Assembly: GCF_900112065.1 (NCBI RefSeq)
Contig: NZ_FOKE01000003.1
Span: 628,249-692,248, forward strand
Source of the DNA: Cohnella sp. OV330
GTDB lineage: Bacteria; Bacillota; Bacilli; Paenibacillales; Paenibacillaceae
Length of the DNA: 64,000 nt
Direction of reading: 5' to 3'
Shown here: piece by piece, positions 17,598 through 45,079 of the stretch
Numbering within the stretch: position 1 is the first letter of the stretch
How the letters are laid out: each line of letters opens with the position of its first letter
Notes under the pieces: model-generated
The model's database searches: none
What the model was told of the DNA's origin: nothing
The model's input: the letters and a program-made list of their open reading frames with translations, nothing else
Program-made: the position numbers and the translations under genes

Positions 17598-18299
17598 ATG
17601 AATGCCGCTCAAATTCTGATCGCGGACGACGACCGGGAGATCGCGGACCTGATCGCCATCTATCTGCTGAACGAGGGCTATCGCGTGCTGAAGGCGGCGG
17701 ACGGCCGCGAAGCGCTGTCGCTGATCCGGTCGGAATCGGTCCAGCTCGTCATCCTCGACGTGATGATGCCGGAGATGGACGGGCTCGAGGTTTGCCGCGC
17801 GGTGCGCGCCGACGACGCGGTGCCGATCTTGATGCTTAGCGCGAAGGCCGAGGACATGGACAAGATCATGGGGCTCATGACCGGGGCCGACGACTATATG
17901 GTCAAGCCGTTTAACCCGCTGGAGCTCGTCGCCCGGGTCAAGTCGCTGCTCCGCCGGTCGTTCGGATTGAACGCCAGGCTGCGGCAGAGCCGCGAGGACG
18001 ACGATATCCAGATCCAGTCGCTTCGAATCAACAAGAATACCCACACCGTCATGGCAGAGGACAAGCATATCAATCTGACCTCGACGGAGTTCGATATTTT
18101 GCATCTGCTGGCCAGCCACCCGGGGCAAGTGTTCAGCGCCGAGGCGATCTTCGAGGCGGTCTGGAAGGACAAGTTCCTGGAGTCCAACAACACCGTCATG
18201 GTGCACATCAGCAATCTGCGGGACAAGCTGGAGCACGCGCTGGACGGCGCCAAGCCGATCCGGACGGTGTGGGGAGTAGGTTATAAAATTGAACCCTAA
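17598..18299 (+). CDS. VanR-like OmpR-family response regulator
   Basis: A 233-residue regulator. The receiver domain (1-115) has acidic pocket Asp10/Asp11, phospho-acceptor Asp54 in LVILDVMMPEMDG, and the conserved Lys in YMVKPFNPLEL. The C-terminal winged helix reads NLTSTEFDILHLLASHPGQVFSAEAIFEAVW...VMVHISNLRDKLE. The wording EIADLIAIYLLNEGY and SAKAEDMDKIMGLMTGADDYM resembles the VanR subgroup. The ATG at 17598 follows AAGGGG at good spacing. It overlaps the kinase gene by 11 nt. VanR-like pairs are common in Paenibacillaceae and most are not linked to glycopeptides, so the function is inferred only at family level. Confidence 0.85.
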   Translation: MNAAQILIADDDREIADLIAIYLLNEGYRVLKAADGREALSLIRSESVQLVILDVMMPEMDGLEVCRAVRADDAVPILMLSAKAEDMDKIMGLMTGADDYMVKPFNPLELVARVKSLLRRSFGLNARLRQSREDDDIQIQSLRINKNTHTVMAEDKHINLTSTEFDILHLLASHPGQVFSAEAIFEAVWKDKFLESNNTVMVHISNLRDKLEHALDGAKPIRTVWGVGYKIEP

Positions 18300-19371
18300 C
18301 CCGCTGTTCGGGCTGCGCTTCAAGCTGCTGATCCTGGTCGCGCTCAGTCTCGGGTTCGCGGGCGGTACTGCGATGCTGCTGTACGTCCTTGCCGTCCAAT
18401 TCGATATTACGATCCTGAATGCGCTGGCATGGTGGTTTTACGAACGCTTTGGCAGGTCGATCACGCTCGCGTTGGCGATTCTCGCGCTGTTTATCGTCTA
18501 TTTGTTCGTCTTCAGCCATGGCACCATCCGTTATCTGCTGCGGATCACGCAAGGGGTGGGCGAGATCGCCGAAGGTAAATTCGACAGCCGCATCCCCGTC
18601 CGGACGGGCGACGAGCTCGGCGTGCTGGCGGATCGCATCAACCGCATGAGCGAGCAGCTTAAGCGCTCTATCGAGGAAGAACGGCGGACGGAGCGGGCCA
18701 AGACGGAGCTCGTTACCAACGTCTCCCACGATCTGCGAACGCCGCTCACCTCGATCGTCGGCTATCTGGGACTGATCGAGCAGGACCGCTATCGCGACGA
18801 GGTCGAGCTGCGCCACTACACGGGCATCGCTTACGACAAGGCGCTGCGGCTGCAGGGACTGATCAACGACCTGTTCGAATATACCCGCACGAGCGGCGGG
18901 ATGCCGCTCCGGCTCGCGCCGCTTAACCTGGTCGAGATGCTGGGGCAGCTGGCCGTTCAGTTCCGGCTTCAATTCGAGCAGGCGGGGGTCGAAGGCGCTG
19001 CGACGTTCGCGGAGAAGGAGCTGACCGTGGCGGCGGACGGCGACAAGCTGGTACGGGTGTTCGAAAATCTGATCGACAACGCGATCCGTTACGGCAGGGA
19101 TGGCGGCAGGATCGACATTCGGGCGCGGCGAGAAGGAACGGAGGCGGTGGCGGAGATCGTGAATTACGGCGAGCCGCTGCCAGCCTCGGCAATCCCGCTG
19201 CTGTTCGACCGTTTTTACCGGCTGGAGCAGTCCCGTTCGCGGCATACCGGCGGATCGGGCCTCGGGCTCGCGATCGCCAAAAACATCGTCGAGCTGCACG
19301 GCGGCTCGATCGCGGCTTCCAGCGGCGAGGGGGGCACGATTTTTGCGGTTCGGCTGCCCTTGATGAGGTAG
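18289..19371 (+). CDS. VanS-like sensor histidine kinase
   Basis: A 360-residue membrane kinase. Two helices (about 11-37 and 58-76) flank a very short outside loop of about 20 residues. A HAMP linker follows (about 79-130). The dimerisation domain has His147 in NVSHDLRTPLTSIVGYL, then the ATP-binding boxes FENLIDNAIRYG (N), a divergent D box, and GSGLGLAIAKNIVELHGG (G2). The TTG start at 18289 overlaps the regulator stop and is preceded by GGGGAG/AGG. The tiny sensor loop suggests detection of something in or at the membrane rather than a large ligand domain. A terminator lies 34 bp downstream. Confidence 0.87.
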   Translation: MNPNPLFGLRFKLLILVALSLGFAGGTAMLLYVLAVQFDITILNALAWWFYERFGRSITLALAILALFIVYLFVFSHGTIRYLLRITQGVGEIAEGKFDSRIPVRTGDELGVLADRINRMSEQLKRSIEEERRTERAKTELVTNVSHDLRTPLTSIVGYLGLIEQDRYRDEVELRHYTGIAYDKALRLQGLINDLFEYTRTSGGMPLRLAPLNLVEMLGQLAVQFRLQFEQAGVEGAATFAEKELTVAADGDKLVRVFENLIDNAIRYGRDGGRIDIRARREGTEAVAEIVNYGEPLPASAIPLLFDRFYRLEQSRSRHTGGSGLGLAIAKNIVELHGGSIAASSGEGGTIFAVRLPLMR

Positions 19372-40591: not shown

Positions 40592-40780
40592 GCTATCGCG
40601 CAAAAGTACACGATCGAGAGCCGCACCTGTTCGTCGTTCCGCCTATCGCGCAAAAGTGCAGGATTTTTACCCGAAACACCCGGGTTCTCGCTTAAAGAAA
40701 CGAGCTACCGTGCACTTTTGCGCGATAGATCGCAAAAATACGCCATACCGGCCTTGGATGATGCATTTTTGCAGGATAGC
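40592..40780. repeat. Cluster of TGCA-type intergenic repeats
   Basis: The intergenic segment contains CTATCGCGCAAAAGTRCA twice in direct orientation (from 40592 and 40643), once inverted (around 40709-40729), and two decayed copies (ATCGCAAAAATACG near 40728; TGCATTTTTGCAGGATAG near 40759). Together they can fold into long stems between the convergent beta-mannosidase and VanT-like genes. Related sequences occur near 27.9 kb, 55.15 kb and 58.1 kb. Confidence 0.7.
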
Positions 40781-40781
40781 A

Positions 40782-41900
40782 CTAGTGCCGGATCGATACC
40801 GATCCGGTTTTTTTGGCGCGATGACGCATGGCGGTCCGAATCGTTCGTAAGGTAGGGAAGCGGACGGCAACGGCCGCCATCGCGATGGAAAACGCGCAAA
40901 CCGCGGCGAAGTGAATGAGGCTGTTGCCGATCAGCCATGGCTGCAGCCCCGTCGCTTTGGCGGCGCCGCGCACGAGCACGATGGCGAGCGGATGCAGGAC
41001 GTAGATCCACGCGCGTCCCTCCCGAAGCGTACGGTTCGCCGGCCCTTTATAAGGGAGAGCCAGCAAGAGTAGAAAATAGGCGGCAGGCACCGCAAAAACG
41101 TACATGCTGTCGTGCCGCGGAATGTCGCCCGCGCGCAGCCAGACCGCCTCCGCGAGCATCGCGGACAGCGAAGCAAGGAACAAGATCGCATGCGCGAGCG
41201 GGCGTCTGACCGTTCGCGGTCGCCTTGCGACGGAGGCGCCCAGCGCCAGGTAGATCGGCGCGAAAAACAGGCCGTTGCGCGTATAGTCGAACGCGCGGAA
41301 CATTCCGTTATACCATCCCGTCAGGACATCGCTGCCTGCGAGGAAGCTGTAATAGCTGTCGCCGAACAGTCCGACGGCATACAGCAAGCAAGCGACGGTA
41401 ATGACCGCGGCCGGCTTCAGCGCGCGGTACAGTCCGTGCAGCATGGCGATGCCGATCATCAGCGCAGGCAAGTACCAGAGGTGGTAGAAGGTGCCGTCGA
41501 ACGCAAGGTCCCGCAGCAACGAAAGCGTGCCGAACTTTGGGGAAGAGAAGTAACCATTGTATACGTTGAGCGGCACATAGAGCAGGATGGCGATCGCGTA
41601 CAGTCTGGCGATGCTGCCGAGATAGCGCCGAAGATGGCGCCGGTCGGCGAGCGGGTCGCCCGTCAGCTTGCGGAAGTAGAAGAAGCCGGAGGTCATGAAA
41701 AAGATCGGTACGGCGATGCGGGTGAGCGCGCCGTCGACCAGAAAGTCCGCGGACGGGCCAAAGACGGCGAATGGGCCCGTATGGTTGGCGATGACGAGCA
41801 AGGCGGCGACGAACTTCAGCCATGACAGTCCGAGGAAATCCGTTTTGGCGGAAGTAGCCGATGTAGCCGATGTAGCCGATGTAGCCGATTTAGCCGACAA
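40782..41900 (-). CDS. VanT-like membrane domain protein (acyltransferase-3 family)
   Basis: A 372-residue polytopic protein. LSWLKFVAALLVIANHTGPF, ADFLVDGALTRIAVPIFFMTSGFFYF and FYHLWYLPALMIG closely follow the N-terminal membrane domain of VanT serine racemases, which is thought to take up L-serine. The racemase half is absent here and is encoded two genes upstream. The TTG at 41900 overlaps the VanXY-like stop by 11 nt; no ATG exists before the core domain. Residues 2-18 are an Ala-Thr-Ser repeat encoded by 9-bp tandem units. It is the last gene of the four-gene operon. A plain acyltransferase role is the main alternative. Confidence 0.75.
   Translation of the reverse strand: MSAKSATSATSATSATSAKTDFLGLSWLKFVAALLVIANHTGPFAVFGPSADFLVDGALTRIAVPIFFMTSGFFYFRKLTGDPLADRRHLRRYLGSIARLYAIAILLYVPLNVYNGYFSSPKFGTLSLLRDLAFDGTFYHLWYLPALMIGIAMLHGLYRALKPAAVITVACLLYAVGLFGDSYYSFLAGSDVLTGWYNGMFRAFDYTRNGLFFAPIYLALGASVARRPRTVRRPLAHAILFLASLSAMLAEAVWLRAGDIPRHDSMYVFAVPAAYFLLLLALPYKGPANRTLREGRAWIYVLHPLAIVLVRGAAKATGLQPWLIGNSLIHFAAVCAFSIAMAAVAVRFPTLRTIRTAMRHRAKKTGSVSIRH
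41854..41898. repeat. 9-bp tandem repeat at the start of the VanT-like gene
   Basis: GTAGCCGAT occurs four times in a row and a fifth degenerate copy (TTAGCCGAC) follows. On the coding strand it specifies repeated Ala-Thr-Ser at the N-terminus. Copy changes would keep the frame but alter the length of the cytoplasmic tail. Confidence 0.9.
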
Positions 41901-42765
41901 GGGACCGCCGCCTTTTGCCGCTGAAAGCCGTCACGATCAGGCCGCCCGCGTTGTCGCCGGACAGACGGTAATAATCGCAATCCGGAATCGGTACCTCGAT
42001 AAAGCTGCCGTCGCCGATGGGGACGTAATAGATTTCGACGCGCTCGCGTTCGTCTTCGATGGCGAGCCGTTCTCCGCCGAACGAATATCGACGCAGCCGC
42101 TCGATGTATTCTTCGAGGCACAGATTCTCCCGTTCCATAAGCTCGGCGTGCGGGGCCCCGACGTAGCGGAAATGCCATGGCTCGCAGGCGATGCCGGTGA
42201 GGGCCTCCTTGCCCGCGCGGTATCGCTGGACGAAGCCGTGCTGCGCGGCGAGCCGCTTGAAGTCCAGGCAGGCGCCGCTATCGGGGAAGTCCGGCGCGAT
42301 GAAGTCGAGCTCGCCGCCGCCCGCAAAGCCGACGTCCACGGCGAGTCCGGTCTGGTGCTCGCTGCAGCCGGGCCAGGCGACATACGCGGCCGTATACTGC
42401 GGCCCGTTGTCCCGAAGCGACGATTCGTAAATTTCAGTCTGCTCGGCCGCCGTCCGATACGCGCTCACCGCCACGATATCCGCCGTGCCGCGGCAGGCCG
42501 CCAGCAGCTCGCTTAGCCGGGCGAGCGCCGTCGTTTCCAGAAGCATTCCCGGCGCGAGCGCGCGCATCGCGGGATACGCGTCCAGATCCGCCAGCTTGTC
42601 CGCGGGGACCGGCTCGCGTACCGGATGCTGCCGATTGACGAGGATGAGATGGCCTTCGCGGACGGCCGCGACATCCACTCTAATCAGGTGATGATTGCGA
42701 ACCTGCAGCTCCGTCAGATCACGGTCGGCTCCTGCCGCTGCGGTTGAAAATAAGCGTTGTTCCAT
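41890..42765 (-). CDS. VanXY/VanY-type D,D-peptidase (M15B family)
   Basis: A 291-residue zinc peptidase cleaving D-Ala from D-Ala-D-Ala dipeptide and/or pentapeptide stems. Visible: the substrate-pocket SAYRTAAEQTEIY, zinc ligands His137 and Asp144 in SEHQTGLAVD, catalytic Glu195 and zinc ligand His198 in CEPWHFRYVG. There is no signal peptide or membrane anchor, which fits cytoplasmic VanXY rather than membrane-bound VanY. A C-terminal extension of about 65 residues (VEIYYVPIGDG...YRLSGDNAGGLIVTAF) recalls that of VanXY-G. The ATG at 42765 follows GGAGG. It overlaps the racemase gene by 52 nt and the VanT-like gene by 11 nt. Confidence 0.85.
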   Translation of the reverse strand: MEQRLFSTAAAGADRDLTELQVRNHHLIRVDVAAVREGHLILVNRQHPVREPVPADKLADLDAYPAMRALAPGMLLETTALARLSELLAACRGTADIVAVSAYRTAAEQTEIYESSLRDNGPQYTAAYVAWPGCSEHQTGLAVDVGFAGGGELDFIAPDFPDSGACLDFKRLAAQHGFVQRYRAGKEALTGIACEPWHFRYVGAPHAELMERENLCLEEYIERLRRYSFGGERLAIEDERERVEIYYVPIGDGSFIEVPIPDCDYYRLSGDNAGGLIVTAFSGKRRRSLVG

Positions 42766-43889
42766 GGACAGCGAACCTCCTTTGCGCTTGCGTATATTTT
42801 GGCGACGCGCTCCGTCAGCGCCGTCGTGATCGCTTGCGACGGGCCGTCGATATGGGCGGCCAGCTCGGCGAACGAGACGCGCTCGCCGCCCTGGCGACCG
42901 ATCAGCGTCACCCGGTCCCCGGGCGCGCAAGGTCCGGGCAGCCGGAGCATCAGCTGATCCATGGAGATCTTGCCGACGATCTCGGCGCGCTGTCCGCGCA
43001 CCAAGGCGGCGGCGCCCTGCATCCGCTGCGACCAACCGTCCGCATAGCCGATCGGGACCGTGCCGATCCATTCGTCGGCGTCGGCGCGGTAGGCGTTGTC
43101 GTAGCCGATATAGTCGCCCCGCCGCACGCGCTTCGCCTGCATGAGCGTACTGTGCAGGCTGAGCGCCGGCTCCAGTTCGACGGGCGGCGCGAGATGTCCC
43201 GGATAAAAGCCGTACATCGCGGCGCCGATCCGCACCATGTCGAGCGCCAGGCCGGGGAACCGCAGCGCCGCGACGCTGCCCGCGCAGTGATAGTGACGAA
43301 TGGCGATGCCGCTAGCCTTGCTGCGCTCCATGAGCGCCGCGAATTGACGGGCTTGCCGCTCCAAGTATGCCGTATCCGCTTGCCCTGCCGTCGCGAAGTG
43401 CGTATAGAAGCCGTCGACGTCGATGTCCGGGGCGGCGAGCCACGGGACCAGCGCGTCCCACTCCGCCTCCGTCCGGAAGCCGATCCGGCCGAGCCCGGTG
43501 TCCGCCTTGACGTGGACGCGCAGCTTGCGGCCGGCCAACGAAGGCACTTGCCTTCGAAGCTCCCGGAACCATTCCGCGCCCGTGACAGTGAGCATGAGAT
43601 CCTGCGCCAGCGCCAGCTCGACCTGCTCCGGGCGGATCGGCGTCAGCAGCAGGATCGGGAGCGTAGCGCCTCCGGCCCGCAGGCGCAGCGCTTCCTCGAG
43701 AAAGGCCACCGCCAAATAATCCGCTCCCGCCTGTCTCGCAGCCTCGGCGGTCTCAAGATCGCCGTGTCCGTAGCCGTTCGCCTTGACGACGGCCATCAGC
43801 TTCACGCCCGCGGGCAGCGTGCCGCGAATGGCTCGCAGGTTGTCCGCGATGCGGCCGGGCTCGATCTCCGCCCACGTCTCCCTCAGCAT
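42714..43889 (-). CDS. Alr-type PLP racemase (alanine or VanT-like serine racemase)
   Basis: A 391-residue fold-III PLP enzyme. The PLP lysine is Lys36 in AVVKANGYGHGD, and the second catalytic base is expected in DYIGYDNAYRA. VPIGYADGWSQRM and GKISMDQLMLRLP match Alr and the C-terminal domain of VanT. It would supply D-Ala or D-Ser to the ligase encoded just upstream. The residue before RVAKIY near the C-terminus is Glu; the matching position is Tyr in Geobacillus Alr and reported as a specificity residue (Asn) in VanT-G, so sequence alone does not settle the substrate. It overlaps the ligase gene by 7 nt. Confidence 0.82.
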   Translation of the reverse strand: MLRETWAEIEPGRIADNLRAIRGTLPAGVKLMAVVKANGYGHGDLETAEAARQAGADYLAVAFLEEALRLRAGGATLPILLLTPIRPEQVELALAQDLMLTVTGAEWFRELRRQVPSLAGRKLRVHVKADTGLGRIGFRTEAEWDALVPWLAAPDIDVDGFYTHFATAGQADTAYLERQARQFAALMERSKASGIAIRHYHCAGSVAALRFPGLALDMVRIGAAMYGFYPGHLAPPVELEPALSLHSTLMQAKRVRRGDYIGYDNAYRADADEWIGTVPIGYADGWSQRMQGAAALVRGQRAEIVGKISMDQLMLRLPGPCAPGDRVTLIGRQGGERVSFAELAAHIDGPSQAITTALTERVAKIYASAKEVRCPWNNAYFQPQRQEPTVI

Positions 43890-44974
43890 GTGCTTTTCCT
43901 CACGTATTGGAGCGTTTGCCTGGCTTCGTGTCGAGCGAACGCATAATCGATCAGCCGCTCGATCAGCGCCGCGTATGTCGTGCCGTCCGTCCGCTCCCAC
44001 ATGACTGGATACATGCTGGCGGACGTGAAGCCGGGCAGCGCGTTGATCTCGTTCAGATAGAACAGGCCGTCCCGGTCCAGGAAAAAGTCCACGCGGGCAA
44101 GCCCTTCGCAGCCGAGCGCCCGGTAAGCTTGCAGCGCCAACGACCGGACTTGTCCGATCAGCGCTTCGCTCACTTCGGCCGGAATCGACATGCGCAGCTT
44201 CGGATCCGAATACTTGGACGCGAAGTCGAAAAAGCGGTGATCGTGAATGAACTCGCCCGGAAGAGAGGCGATCGGCTCTTCGTTTCCCATGACCGCCACC
44301 TGAATCTCCCGTCCTTGCAGCTCGCGTTCAACGACCAGCTTGGCATCGTACCGGAAGGCCTCCGCGATGCCGGCCAGCAGCTCGCTCCGATTGTCGCAGC
44401 GGCTGATGCCGATGCTCGAGCCAAGCGATGCCGGCTTAACGTAGCAAGGATAGCCGATCTCATCCTCGAGCATGCCGATGCAGCCTTGCTCGTCCGCCAG
44501 CCATTGTCCGCGCAGAACGACCCGATGGTCGACCTGGCGGATGCCTGCCTGCGCGAGGACCTCCTTCGACATCGCCTTGTCCAGCGTGAGCGCCGCGGAC
44601 AGCACGCCGTTTCCTACGTACGGCACGTTCAGCATTTCAAGCAGACCTTGCAGCGTTCCGTCTTCGCCGAAGGATCCGTGAATCAAAGGCAGGACGACCT
44701 TTTTGCCGGGCAGCGACAGCTTGCGGAGCAGGATGTCGCCGATCGAGGCGGCTTCGCTGTCGTGGGACGGCTCGGCGAGGAGACGCTCCGCCGCTTCGAT
44801 GCCCGAGAGGCCCTGCGCGTCCGGCGCGCACCAGCGTCCATCCCTGGCGATATAGATCGGATGCAGCTCGAACTTGGATTCGTCGACCGCGCCGAGGACG
44901 GTGCGGGCGGTTTTTAGCGAAATCTCGTGTTCGACGGACTTGCCGCCATACAAGACGTACAGTTTGGTTTTCAT
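43883..44974 (-). CDS. D-Ala-D-Ala ligase-family enzyme (Ddl/Van ligase)
   Basis: A 363-residue ATP-grasp ligase. The N-terminal VLYGGKSVEHEISLKTA and the signature PLIHGSFGEDGTLQGLLEMLNVPYVG are diagnostic. The ATP-grasp part has YVKPASLGSSIGISR, VVERELQGREIQVAVMG, the omega-loop FFDFASKYSD, and metal ligands in ARVDFFLDRDG and YLNEINALPGF. The omega loop keeps Lys-Tyr, as in D-Ala-D-Ala ligases, rather than the Lys-His of VanA-type D-Ala-D-Lac ligases. It is the first gene of an operon with racemase, VanXY-like and VanT-like partners. Whether the product is D-Ala-D-Ala or D-Ala-D-Ser cannot be decided by eye. GGAGGT precedes the ATG. Confidence 0.88.
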   Translation of the reverse strand: MKTKLYVLYGGKSVEHEISLKTARTVLGAVDESKFELHPIYIARDGRWCAPDAQGLSGIEAAERLLAEPSHDSEAASIGDILLRKLSLPGKKVVLPLIHGSFGEDGTLQGLLEMLNVPYVGNGVLSAALTLDKAMSKEVLAQAGIRQVDHRVVLRGQWLADEQGCIGMLEDEIGYPCYVKPASLGSSIGISRCDNRSELLAGIAEAFRYDAKLVVERELQGREIQVAVMGNEEPIASLPGEFIHDHRFFDFASKYSDPKLRMSIPAEVSEALIGQVRSLALQAYRALGCEGLARVDFFLDRDGLFYLNEINALPGFTSASMYPVMWERTDGTTYAALIERLIDYAFARHEARQTLQYVRKSTC

Positions 44975-45051
44975 CAGATGACCTCCGGTTCGCGATTTTC
45001 TTCGATGTCTACAAGATAACCGCCAACTTTTAAAAAGGTTGAAACGAAAGT

Positions 45052-45079
45052 TTAAGGATTGCTTAAGATTGCTTGAAGC
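45052..45079. promoter_or_regulatory. Direct repeats, possible response-regulator operator
   Basis: TTAAGGATTGC, TTAAGATTGC and TTGAAGC follow one another with about one helical turn spacing, the pattern used by OmpR/PhoB-type regulators (the VanR family). The element lies 78 bp upstream of the ligase start and 120 bp upstream of the alcohol dehydrogenase start. Function inferred only. Confidence 0.4.

Follow-up and report, generated by a model that had tools for sequence, protein, structure and literature searches.

We have analysed a window of 64,000 nucleotides from Cohnella sp. OV330 (contig NZ_FOKE01000003.1, positions 628,249 to 692,248, from a genome of 7.47 Mb), in which an operon on the minus strand, at positions 40782-44974 of the window, may serve to remodel cell-wall precursors. 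It consists of four overlapping open reading frames (ORFs) that encode, in this order, a Ddl-family ligase, an Alr-type racemase, a VanXY-like D,D-peptidase (hereafter XY) and a VanT-type membrane protein. The best explanation, to which we assign a probability of about 0.5 on the strength of sequence comparisons, is an inducible operon for remodelling to D-Ala-D-X, probably D-Ala-D-Ser, which would work like a VanG or VanC operon with a Ddl-type ligase and an Alr-type racemase. For its substrate specificity, inducer and regulation, and for the role of the membrane protein, we infer the following scheme. A VanS/VanR-like pair would sense a cell-wall-active agent and switch the operon on through a repeat-bearing promoter. 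The racemase, a Gln352 variant, would then make D-Ser besides D-Ala, and the ligase, a Phe249 variant, would join D-Ala to another D-residue in second place, D-Ser being the most likely. The D-Ala-D-Ala that comes from the housekeeping Ddl would be destroyed by XY, leaving the altered precursor to dominate, and the membrane protein may support the pathway in the manner of the VanT membrane domain, through serine supply or acyl transfer. An earlier note on this DNA, made from the letters alone, had described the four overlapping genes and their order, which we confirm, and had proposed a D-Ala-D-Ser product, which appears plausible.

The ligase gene (43883-44974; 363 aa) and the gene of the racemase, a pyridoxal-phosphate enzyme (42714-43889; 391 aa), overlap by 7 bp; the racemase gene and that of XY (41890-42765; 291 aa) overlap by 52 bp, and the XY gene and that of the membrane protein (40782-41900; 372 aa, with a TTG start) by 11 bp. 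In Pfam, the ligase matches the N- and C-terminal Dala_Dala_lig domains with 102 and 221 bits, the racemase the N- and C-terminal Ala_racemase domains with 210 and 116 bits, XY the VanY family with 92 bits, and the membrane protein Acyl_transf_3 with 89 bits. The nearest relatives of the operon genes are Cohnella records, the ligase being 91% identical to that of Cohnella ginsengisoli. An Rfam scan of the window gave no match at the gathering score.

A single scan of 84,980 species genomes with XY, from which 80 of 86 relatives were kept, yielded two sets of related loci. Class A comprises 40 Paenibacillaceae loci with ligases 57-91% identical to that of the window, in Paenibacillus, Cohnella and Saccharibacillus and in two records named Bacillus sp. 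The earlier note had suggested looking for the gene order in other genomes, and it proved to be the usual one in class A; two of the 40 loci (L038 and L044) have the order XY, membrane protein, ligase, racemase. No membrane gene was found by tblastn in four of the 40 (L032, L049, L054 and L059), and in L026 the ligase and membrane genes are each broken into two frames, through sequencing error or decay. Class B comprises 40 loci with a VanG-like ligase, 30-41% identical to that of the window, together with XY and VanT. Against the VanG cut-off of 495 bits, the class-B ligase of L050 (Paenibacillus sp. MSJ-34) passes with 552 and that of L099 falls just short with 488. VanT is fused or split in class B, with separate membrane and racemase genes in L081-L083, L091-L093 and L101. 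In a further group of class-B loci (L067-L071 and L074-L078), the racemase gene adjacent to XY has no membrane domain matching the membrane protein of the window. Identity to the class-B counterparts reaches 49% for XY and for the membrane protein of the window, and is 28-35% for its racemase.

Three residues of the VanG ligase, Asp243, Phe252 and Arg324, are presumably its D-Ser determinants, and the equivalent positions were compared in an alignment that holds the window ligase and those of 39 of the 40 class-A loci, the two-frame ligase of L026 being left out. These positions are Gly/Phe/Met in 40 of 40 class-A ligases, Asp/Phe/Arg in 40 of 40 class-B ligases, and Gly/Tyr/Met in all 31 housekeeping Ddl proteins from class-A and class-B genomes. 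In the window ligase it is Phe249 that replaces the Ddl tyrosine (Tyr210 of DdlB, Phe252 of VanG). In the racemase, the position of Alr Tyr354 (Geobacillus numbering) is that of Asn696, which we take to be the corresponding residue of the VanTG catalytic domain. This position is Gln in all 41 class-A racemases (Gln352 in the window), Tyr in all 29 housekeeping Alr, and Asn in all 31 class-B rows with a residue there; two of these rows are duplicates that remain in this count, being among three rows that duplicate loci and were left out of the racemase tree. The class-A racemases also have Gly for Asn203 and Ala for Ile222, in 41 of 41 each. The same inner-layer Gln occurs as Q360 in AlrTt of Thermoanaerobacter (PDB 4Y2W), the register of Q360 against the Tyr354 position having been checked on the alignment. 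According to PMC4517790, AlrTt has a side activity on L-Ser that amounts to 28% of that on L-Ala, and in the Q360Y mutant the activity on L-Ser is dramatically lower. Taken together, the residue patterns suggest that the substrate pocket is widened in the ligase as well as in the racemase, the evidence from the ligase being mixed.

The window ligase and racemase are not the only enzymes of their kind in this genome, which encodes another, higher-scoring Ddl (C22) and two more Alr. All 35 class-A genomes searched (35 of the 40) gave two or more matches for Ddl and likewise for Alr. Thus, the operon is an addition to the housekeeping set, and its ligase and racemase lack the sole-copy status expected of housekeeping Ddl and Alr. 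The housekeeping copies of the same genomes are sited elsewhere; the window ligase is at most 45% identical to housekeeping Ddl and the window racemase at most 40% to housekeeping Alr. What the window enzymes share with these copies is the best family model, Ddl and Alr, respectively, and in the ligase also Gly240 and Met321, which are Ddl-like.

The chief rival explanation starts from this likeness. In it, the ligase and racemase would form a spare D-Ala branch against D-cycloserine-like agents, with trimming or modification of the wall falling to XY and the membrane protein. The best family models and the Ddl-like residues at two of the three VanG positions favour it, as does a report that extra Ddl copies confer D-cycloserine resistance in other settings (PMC7691350). 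Some of these observations, with others, also weigh against D-Ala-D-X remodelling. Two of the three VanG determinants are Ddl-like in 40 of 40 class-A ligases, with Gly for Asp243 and Met for Arg324, and the best family model was that of a D-Ala-D-Ala ligase for all four class-A ligases scanned. The equivalents of DdlB Ser150 and Tyr216, which PMC7691350 links to D-Ala-D-Ala-only ligases, are kept in class-A ligases, and likewise in 40 of 40 class-B ligases. AlrTt, with its Gln, still prefers Ala. None of the four window proteins scores above a Van cut-off in NCBIfam, and for 22 of the 40 class-A loci we found neither an adjacent VanRS-like pair nor a close VanS orthologue. Against the spare D-Ala branch, XY would be expected to destroy its product. 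In addition, the Tyr354 equivalent is lost in 41 of 41 class-A racemases, a change to Gln that in AlrTt lowers the activity on Ala and broadens specificity (PMC4517790), and part of the loci are linked to VanRS-like genes. In favour of remodelling we count the VanXY-G type of XY with its conserved motifs, the VanT type of the membrane protein, the VanRS-like pairs, the additional Ddl and Alr copies, and the Phe and Gln of the class-A enzymes; moreover, a D-Ala-D-Ala ligase beside a D-Ala-D-Ala hydrolase would set up a futile cycle. We consider a spare D-Ala branch unlikely, and continue to regard D-Ala-D-X remodelling as the best explanation.

The family scores bear on a second rival, namely the proposal of the earlier note that this is an ordinary operon of the VanG/VanC kind in which VanT is encoded by two separate genes. 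In NCBIfam, the ligase matches the D-Ala-D-Ala ligase model first, with 412 bits (cut-off 449), and reaches 390 bits on the D-Ala-D-Ala ligase subfamily model, above its cut-off of 262. It is below the cut-offs of the D-Ala:D-Ser ligase models (274 of 495 bits for VanG, 244 of 520 for D_ala_D_ser), as are the class-A ligases of L033, L064 and L038, and it scores 191 bits on the VanC model. The racemase has alr as its best model, with 312 bits and thus above the cut-off of 168, and is below the VanT-G catalytic cut-off (268 of 460 bits). The ligase is therefore not supported as a VanC/VanG ligase, with one of three VanG determinants, nor the racemase as the catalytic half of VanT, and the equivalents of Asp243, Arg324 and Asn696 are all absent. 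By the tests made, which concern the ligase model, two ligase residues and the VanT catalytic residue, the operon is not a VanG or VanC member. In favour of the split-VanT proposal are XY, the membrane protein and the VanRS-like pair.

Phylogenetic trees add evidence on both sides. Among 398 genomes of the class, a VanT-CELN search gave 12 matches, none above the cut-off, and the trees therefore contain no enterococcal VanC reference. In the free ligase tree, the class-A ligases form one group (support 99), which joins housekeeping Ddl and Listeria Ddl (98), apart from class B, VanA and VanB; this argues against a split VanG/VanC operon. In an approximately unbiased (AU) test, common ancestry of the class-A ligases with class B and VanA/VanB is not rejected (p 0.273), and because of this result we have withdrawn the ligase tree as proof of a Ddl origin. 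The racemase tree likewise has class A as one group and class B as another (100 each). A tree that holds the two together, as common ancestry with the VanT catalytic domain would have it, is not rejected (p-AU 0.628) and is better by 5.29 log units of likelihood, and a claim that the racemase is independent of VanT was dropped; a placement of class A with the main group of housekeeping Alr is not rejected either (p 0.51). The earlier note had named a grouping of ligase and racemase with housekeeping enzymes as the outcome that would speak against it. We find that half of this holds: both enzymes score as Ddl and Alr, but each is an additional copy whose active site carries a conserved change, and the AU tests are compatible with an origin either shared with the Van enzymes or apart from them. 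Weighing these points, we judge a plain VanG/VanC operon with a split VanT to be very unlikely.

The two other proteins of the operon are of the VanXY-G and VanT types, respectively. XY carries intact SEHQTGLAVD and EPWH motifs, and the zinc-binding and catalytic motif residues are intact in 41 of 41 class-A XY proteins. By eye, its N-terminus has neither a signal nor an anchor, in keeping with its first description as anchorless. Its best NCBIfam model is vanXY_G, with scores below the VanXY cut-offs (187 of 500 bits for vanXY_G, and 179 of 250), and its best PDB match is 4f78, a D,D-dipeptidase/D,D-carboxypeptidase. In the tree it falls among VanXY-G-like proteins, which bears out the VanXY-like assignment: class A (support 85) and the class-B XY proteins of Paenibacillaceae are neighbours, with a support of 99 for the two jointly. 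This placement supports a shared descent of XY and the VanG operons.

On a profile built from the VanT membrane domains of 19 class-B loci, the membrane protein reaches 402 bits. Of the five remaining AT3 loci in this genome, two match the profile, with 62 and 44 bits, and three do not. The best NCBIfam model is the N-terminal half of vanT-CELN, with 236 bits (protein residues 24-364 on model positions 3-342 of 697). By these scores the membrane protein is, as the earlier note supposed, of VanT type; it is not of OafA type. It has the motif K29-X10-H40, and the K or R and the H of the AT3 motif, given as R/K-X10-H in PMC9833829, are kept in all 37 class-A rows and in all 19 class-B rows. Against the PDB, neither the single sequence nor a 28-row profile gave a match at E values up to 1. 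In the overlap of the XY and membrane genes, at 41854-41897, a 9-bp unit is repeated 4.9 times, so that the membrane protein begins with a TSA repeat. As for function, a 2025 paper points out that the role of the AT3 domain of VanT has received no consideration and that this domain is a site of resistance mutations (PMC12423673), and a C. difficile evolution study was unable to recapitulate the vanT effect (PMC11326576).

Inducibility is suggested by a pair of genes that the earlier note overlooked. On the plus strand, the window encodes a VanR-like response regulator (17598-18299; 233 aa) and a VanS-like histidine kinase (18289-19371; 360 aa), 96% and 92% identical to those of L023, respectively, and assigned to their families through these orthologues. 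The pair is convergent with the operon and 21.4 kb apart from it, and the roughly 21 kb in between (19372-40781) hold sugar-metabolism-like ORFs. In L023 the kinase gene directly meets the membrane gene. In the Cohnella genomes of L024, L025 and L026, a kinase of 91-92% identity lies on the contig of the operon at about 21, 24 and 25 kb, distances that were computed by hand. A response regulator and a histidine kinase are found at the operon in 15 of the 40 class-A loci; 12 of these pairs are divergent directly upstream of the ligase gene, two are divergent upstream of XY and one is convergent. For the two class-A pairs scanned in NCBIfam, the best models were VanR (287 and 290 bits) and VanS (259 and 256 bits), all below cut-off. 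In all, a VanRS-like pair is linked to the operon in 18 of 40 class-A loci and in the window. Among the 25 genomes with no adjacent pair, 22 have a best kinase of 42-53% identity, or none passing.

Upstream of the ligase gene, at 45011-45072 on the minus strand, lies a conserved block, putatively of the promoter, with TTAA direct repeats about 11 bp apart, followed by GTTATCTT. The block occurs in 31 of 40 loci and in the window, and nine loci are without it; it was anchored on TATC[TC]T, so that this part is selected. With weights from 17 other loci, the window site scores 82.4 bits and the next site in the window -7.1; with weights from 14 loci with adjacent VanRS-like genes, the two scores are 17.2 and -16.1. 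Loci that have an adjacent pair and loci that lack one share the same layout of the block. The region upstream of the VanR-like gene is not among the six best sites for the operon-promoter weights. A simple promoter scan, which found one sigma-70-like site in the region and no more than in shuffles, was set aside for this comparative block. At the other end, just downstream of the operon (40593-40746), there are repeats of about 20 nt around TTTTGCGCGATAG, some of them inverted; three exact copies of this 13-mer occur in the window, where 0.21 would be expected if one mismatch is permitted.

The regulatory data touch on a third rival, in which the operon is a growth-phase or sporulation set for wall editing, unrelated to antibiotics, that serves D-Ala-D-Ala turnover and installs another, non-serine terminal residue. 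Such a role would fit the presence of the genes in environmental Paenibacillaceae, the 22 loci for which no close VanS was found, and the frequency of class-A-kind racemases (E at most 1e-100 and identity of 49% or more), which occur in 59 of the 295 genomes sampled across the family, that of the window among them, and in 9 of 19 genera. It is at odds with the linkage of a VanRS-like pair to the operon, seen in 18 of the 40 loci and also in the window, and with a promoter block that keeps its layout whether or not a pair is adjacent. We regard such a wall-editing set as quite unlikely, and D-Ala-D-X remodelling remains our preferred account.

More tentatively, and with clearly less than even confidence, we suggest that the operon may be a convergent second route to D-Ala-D-Ser or D-Ala-D-X walls, in which a ligase of the Ddl lineage, with Tyr changed to Phe, and a racemase of the Alr lineage, with Tyr changed to Gln, would have joined the VanXY, the VanT membrane part and the VanRS of a VanG-like operon in Paenibacillaceae. 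In that case the VanT membrane domain would have a function independent of the VanT racemase. As far as a literature search shows, this combination of Ddl- and Alr-type enzymes with VanXY, the VanT membrane part and VanRS-like genes, which is common in Paenibacillaceae, is new; the search found no description of the gene set, which is not proof of its absence in print. If the D-Ala-D-X reading is true, wall editing of the D-Ala-D-Ser type has been assembled with Ddl- and Alr-like enzymes that standard resistance models label as housekeeping, and such operons would therefore be overlooked in environmental genomes. It would also mean that the VanT membrane domain occurs separated from the VanT racemase, so that the function of this domain, flagged as unexplained in PMC12423673, becomes directly testable, and that nature offers a comparison of the ligase and racemase residues needed for D-Ser.

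Several known systems resemble the operon in part. D-Ala-D-Lac operons of the VanA type are marked by a vanH gene and by a ligase in which the residue equivalent to DdlB Tyr216 is changed, and both features are absent here: Tyr255, at this position, is kept in 40 of 40 class-A ligases, with Lys aligned in one VanA and one VanB, and none of the four operon genes is a vanH. With AT3/TmAT acyltransferases such as OafB and OatA, the membrane protein shares the Acyl_transf_3 domain and the R/K-X10-H residues, while its lineage is that of VanT. In VanL, the membrane and racemase parts of VanT are separate genes as they are here, vanTmL and vanTrL (PMC9404765), and NCBIfam has models for both subunits (NF000033 and NF033133); the doubt first voiced about the novelty of separate VanT subunits was thus well placed. 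The window proteins differ from those of VanL in falling far below the cut-offs of the VanT-L models, with 113 of 750 bits for the racemase on the catalytic one and 152 of 675 for the membrane protein on the membrane one. A further close system is the VanG-type operon of class B. Unlike it, the window has a ligase that scores as Ddl, lacks the Asp243 and Arg324 equivalents and is accompanied by a racemase that scores as Alr, and its order is ligase, racemase, XY, membrane protein as opposed to ligase, XY, VanT. Like it, the window combines a VanXY-G-like peptidase, a VanT-type membrane domain and VanRS-like regulators with the same logic of a ligase and a racemase.

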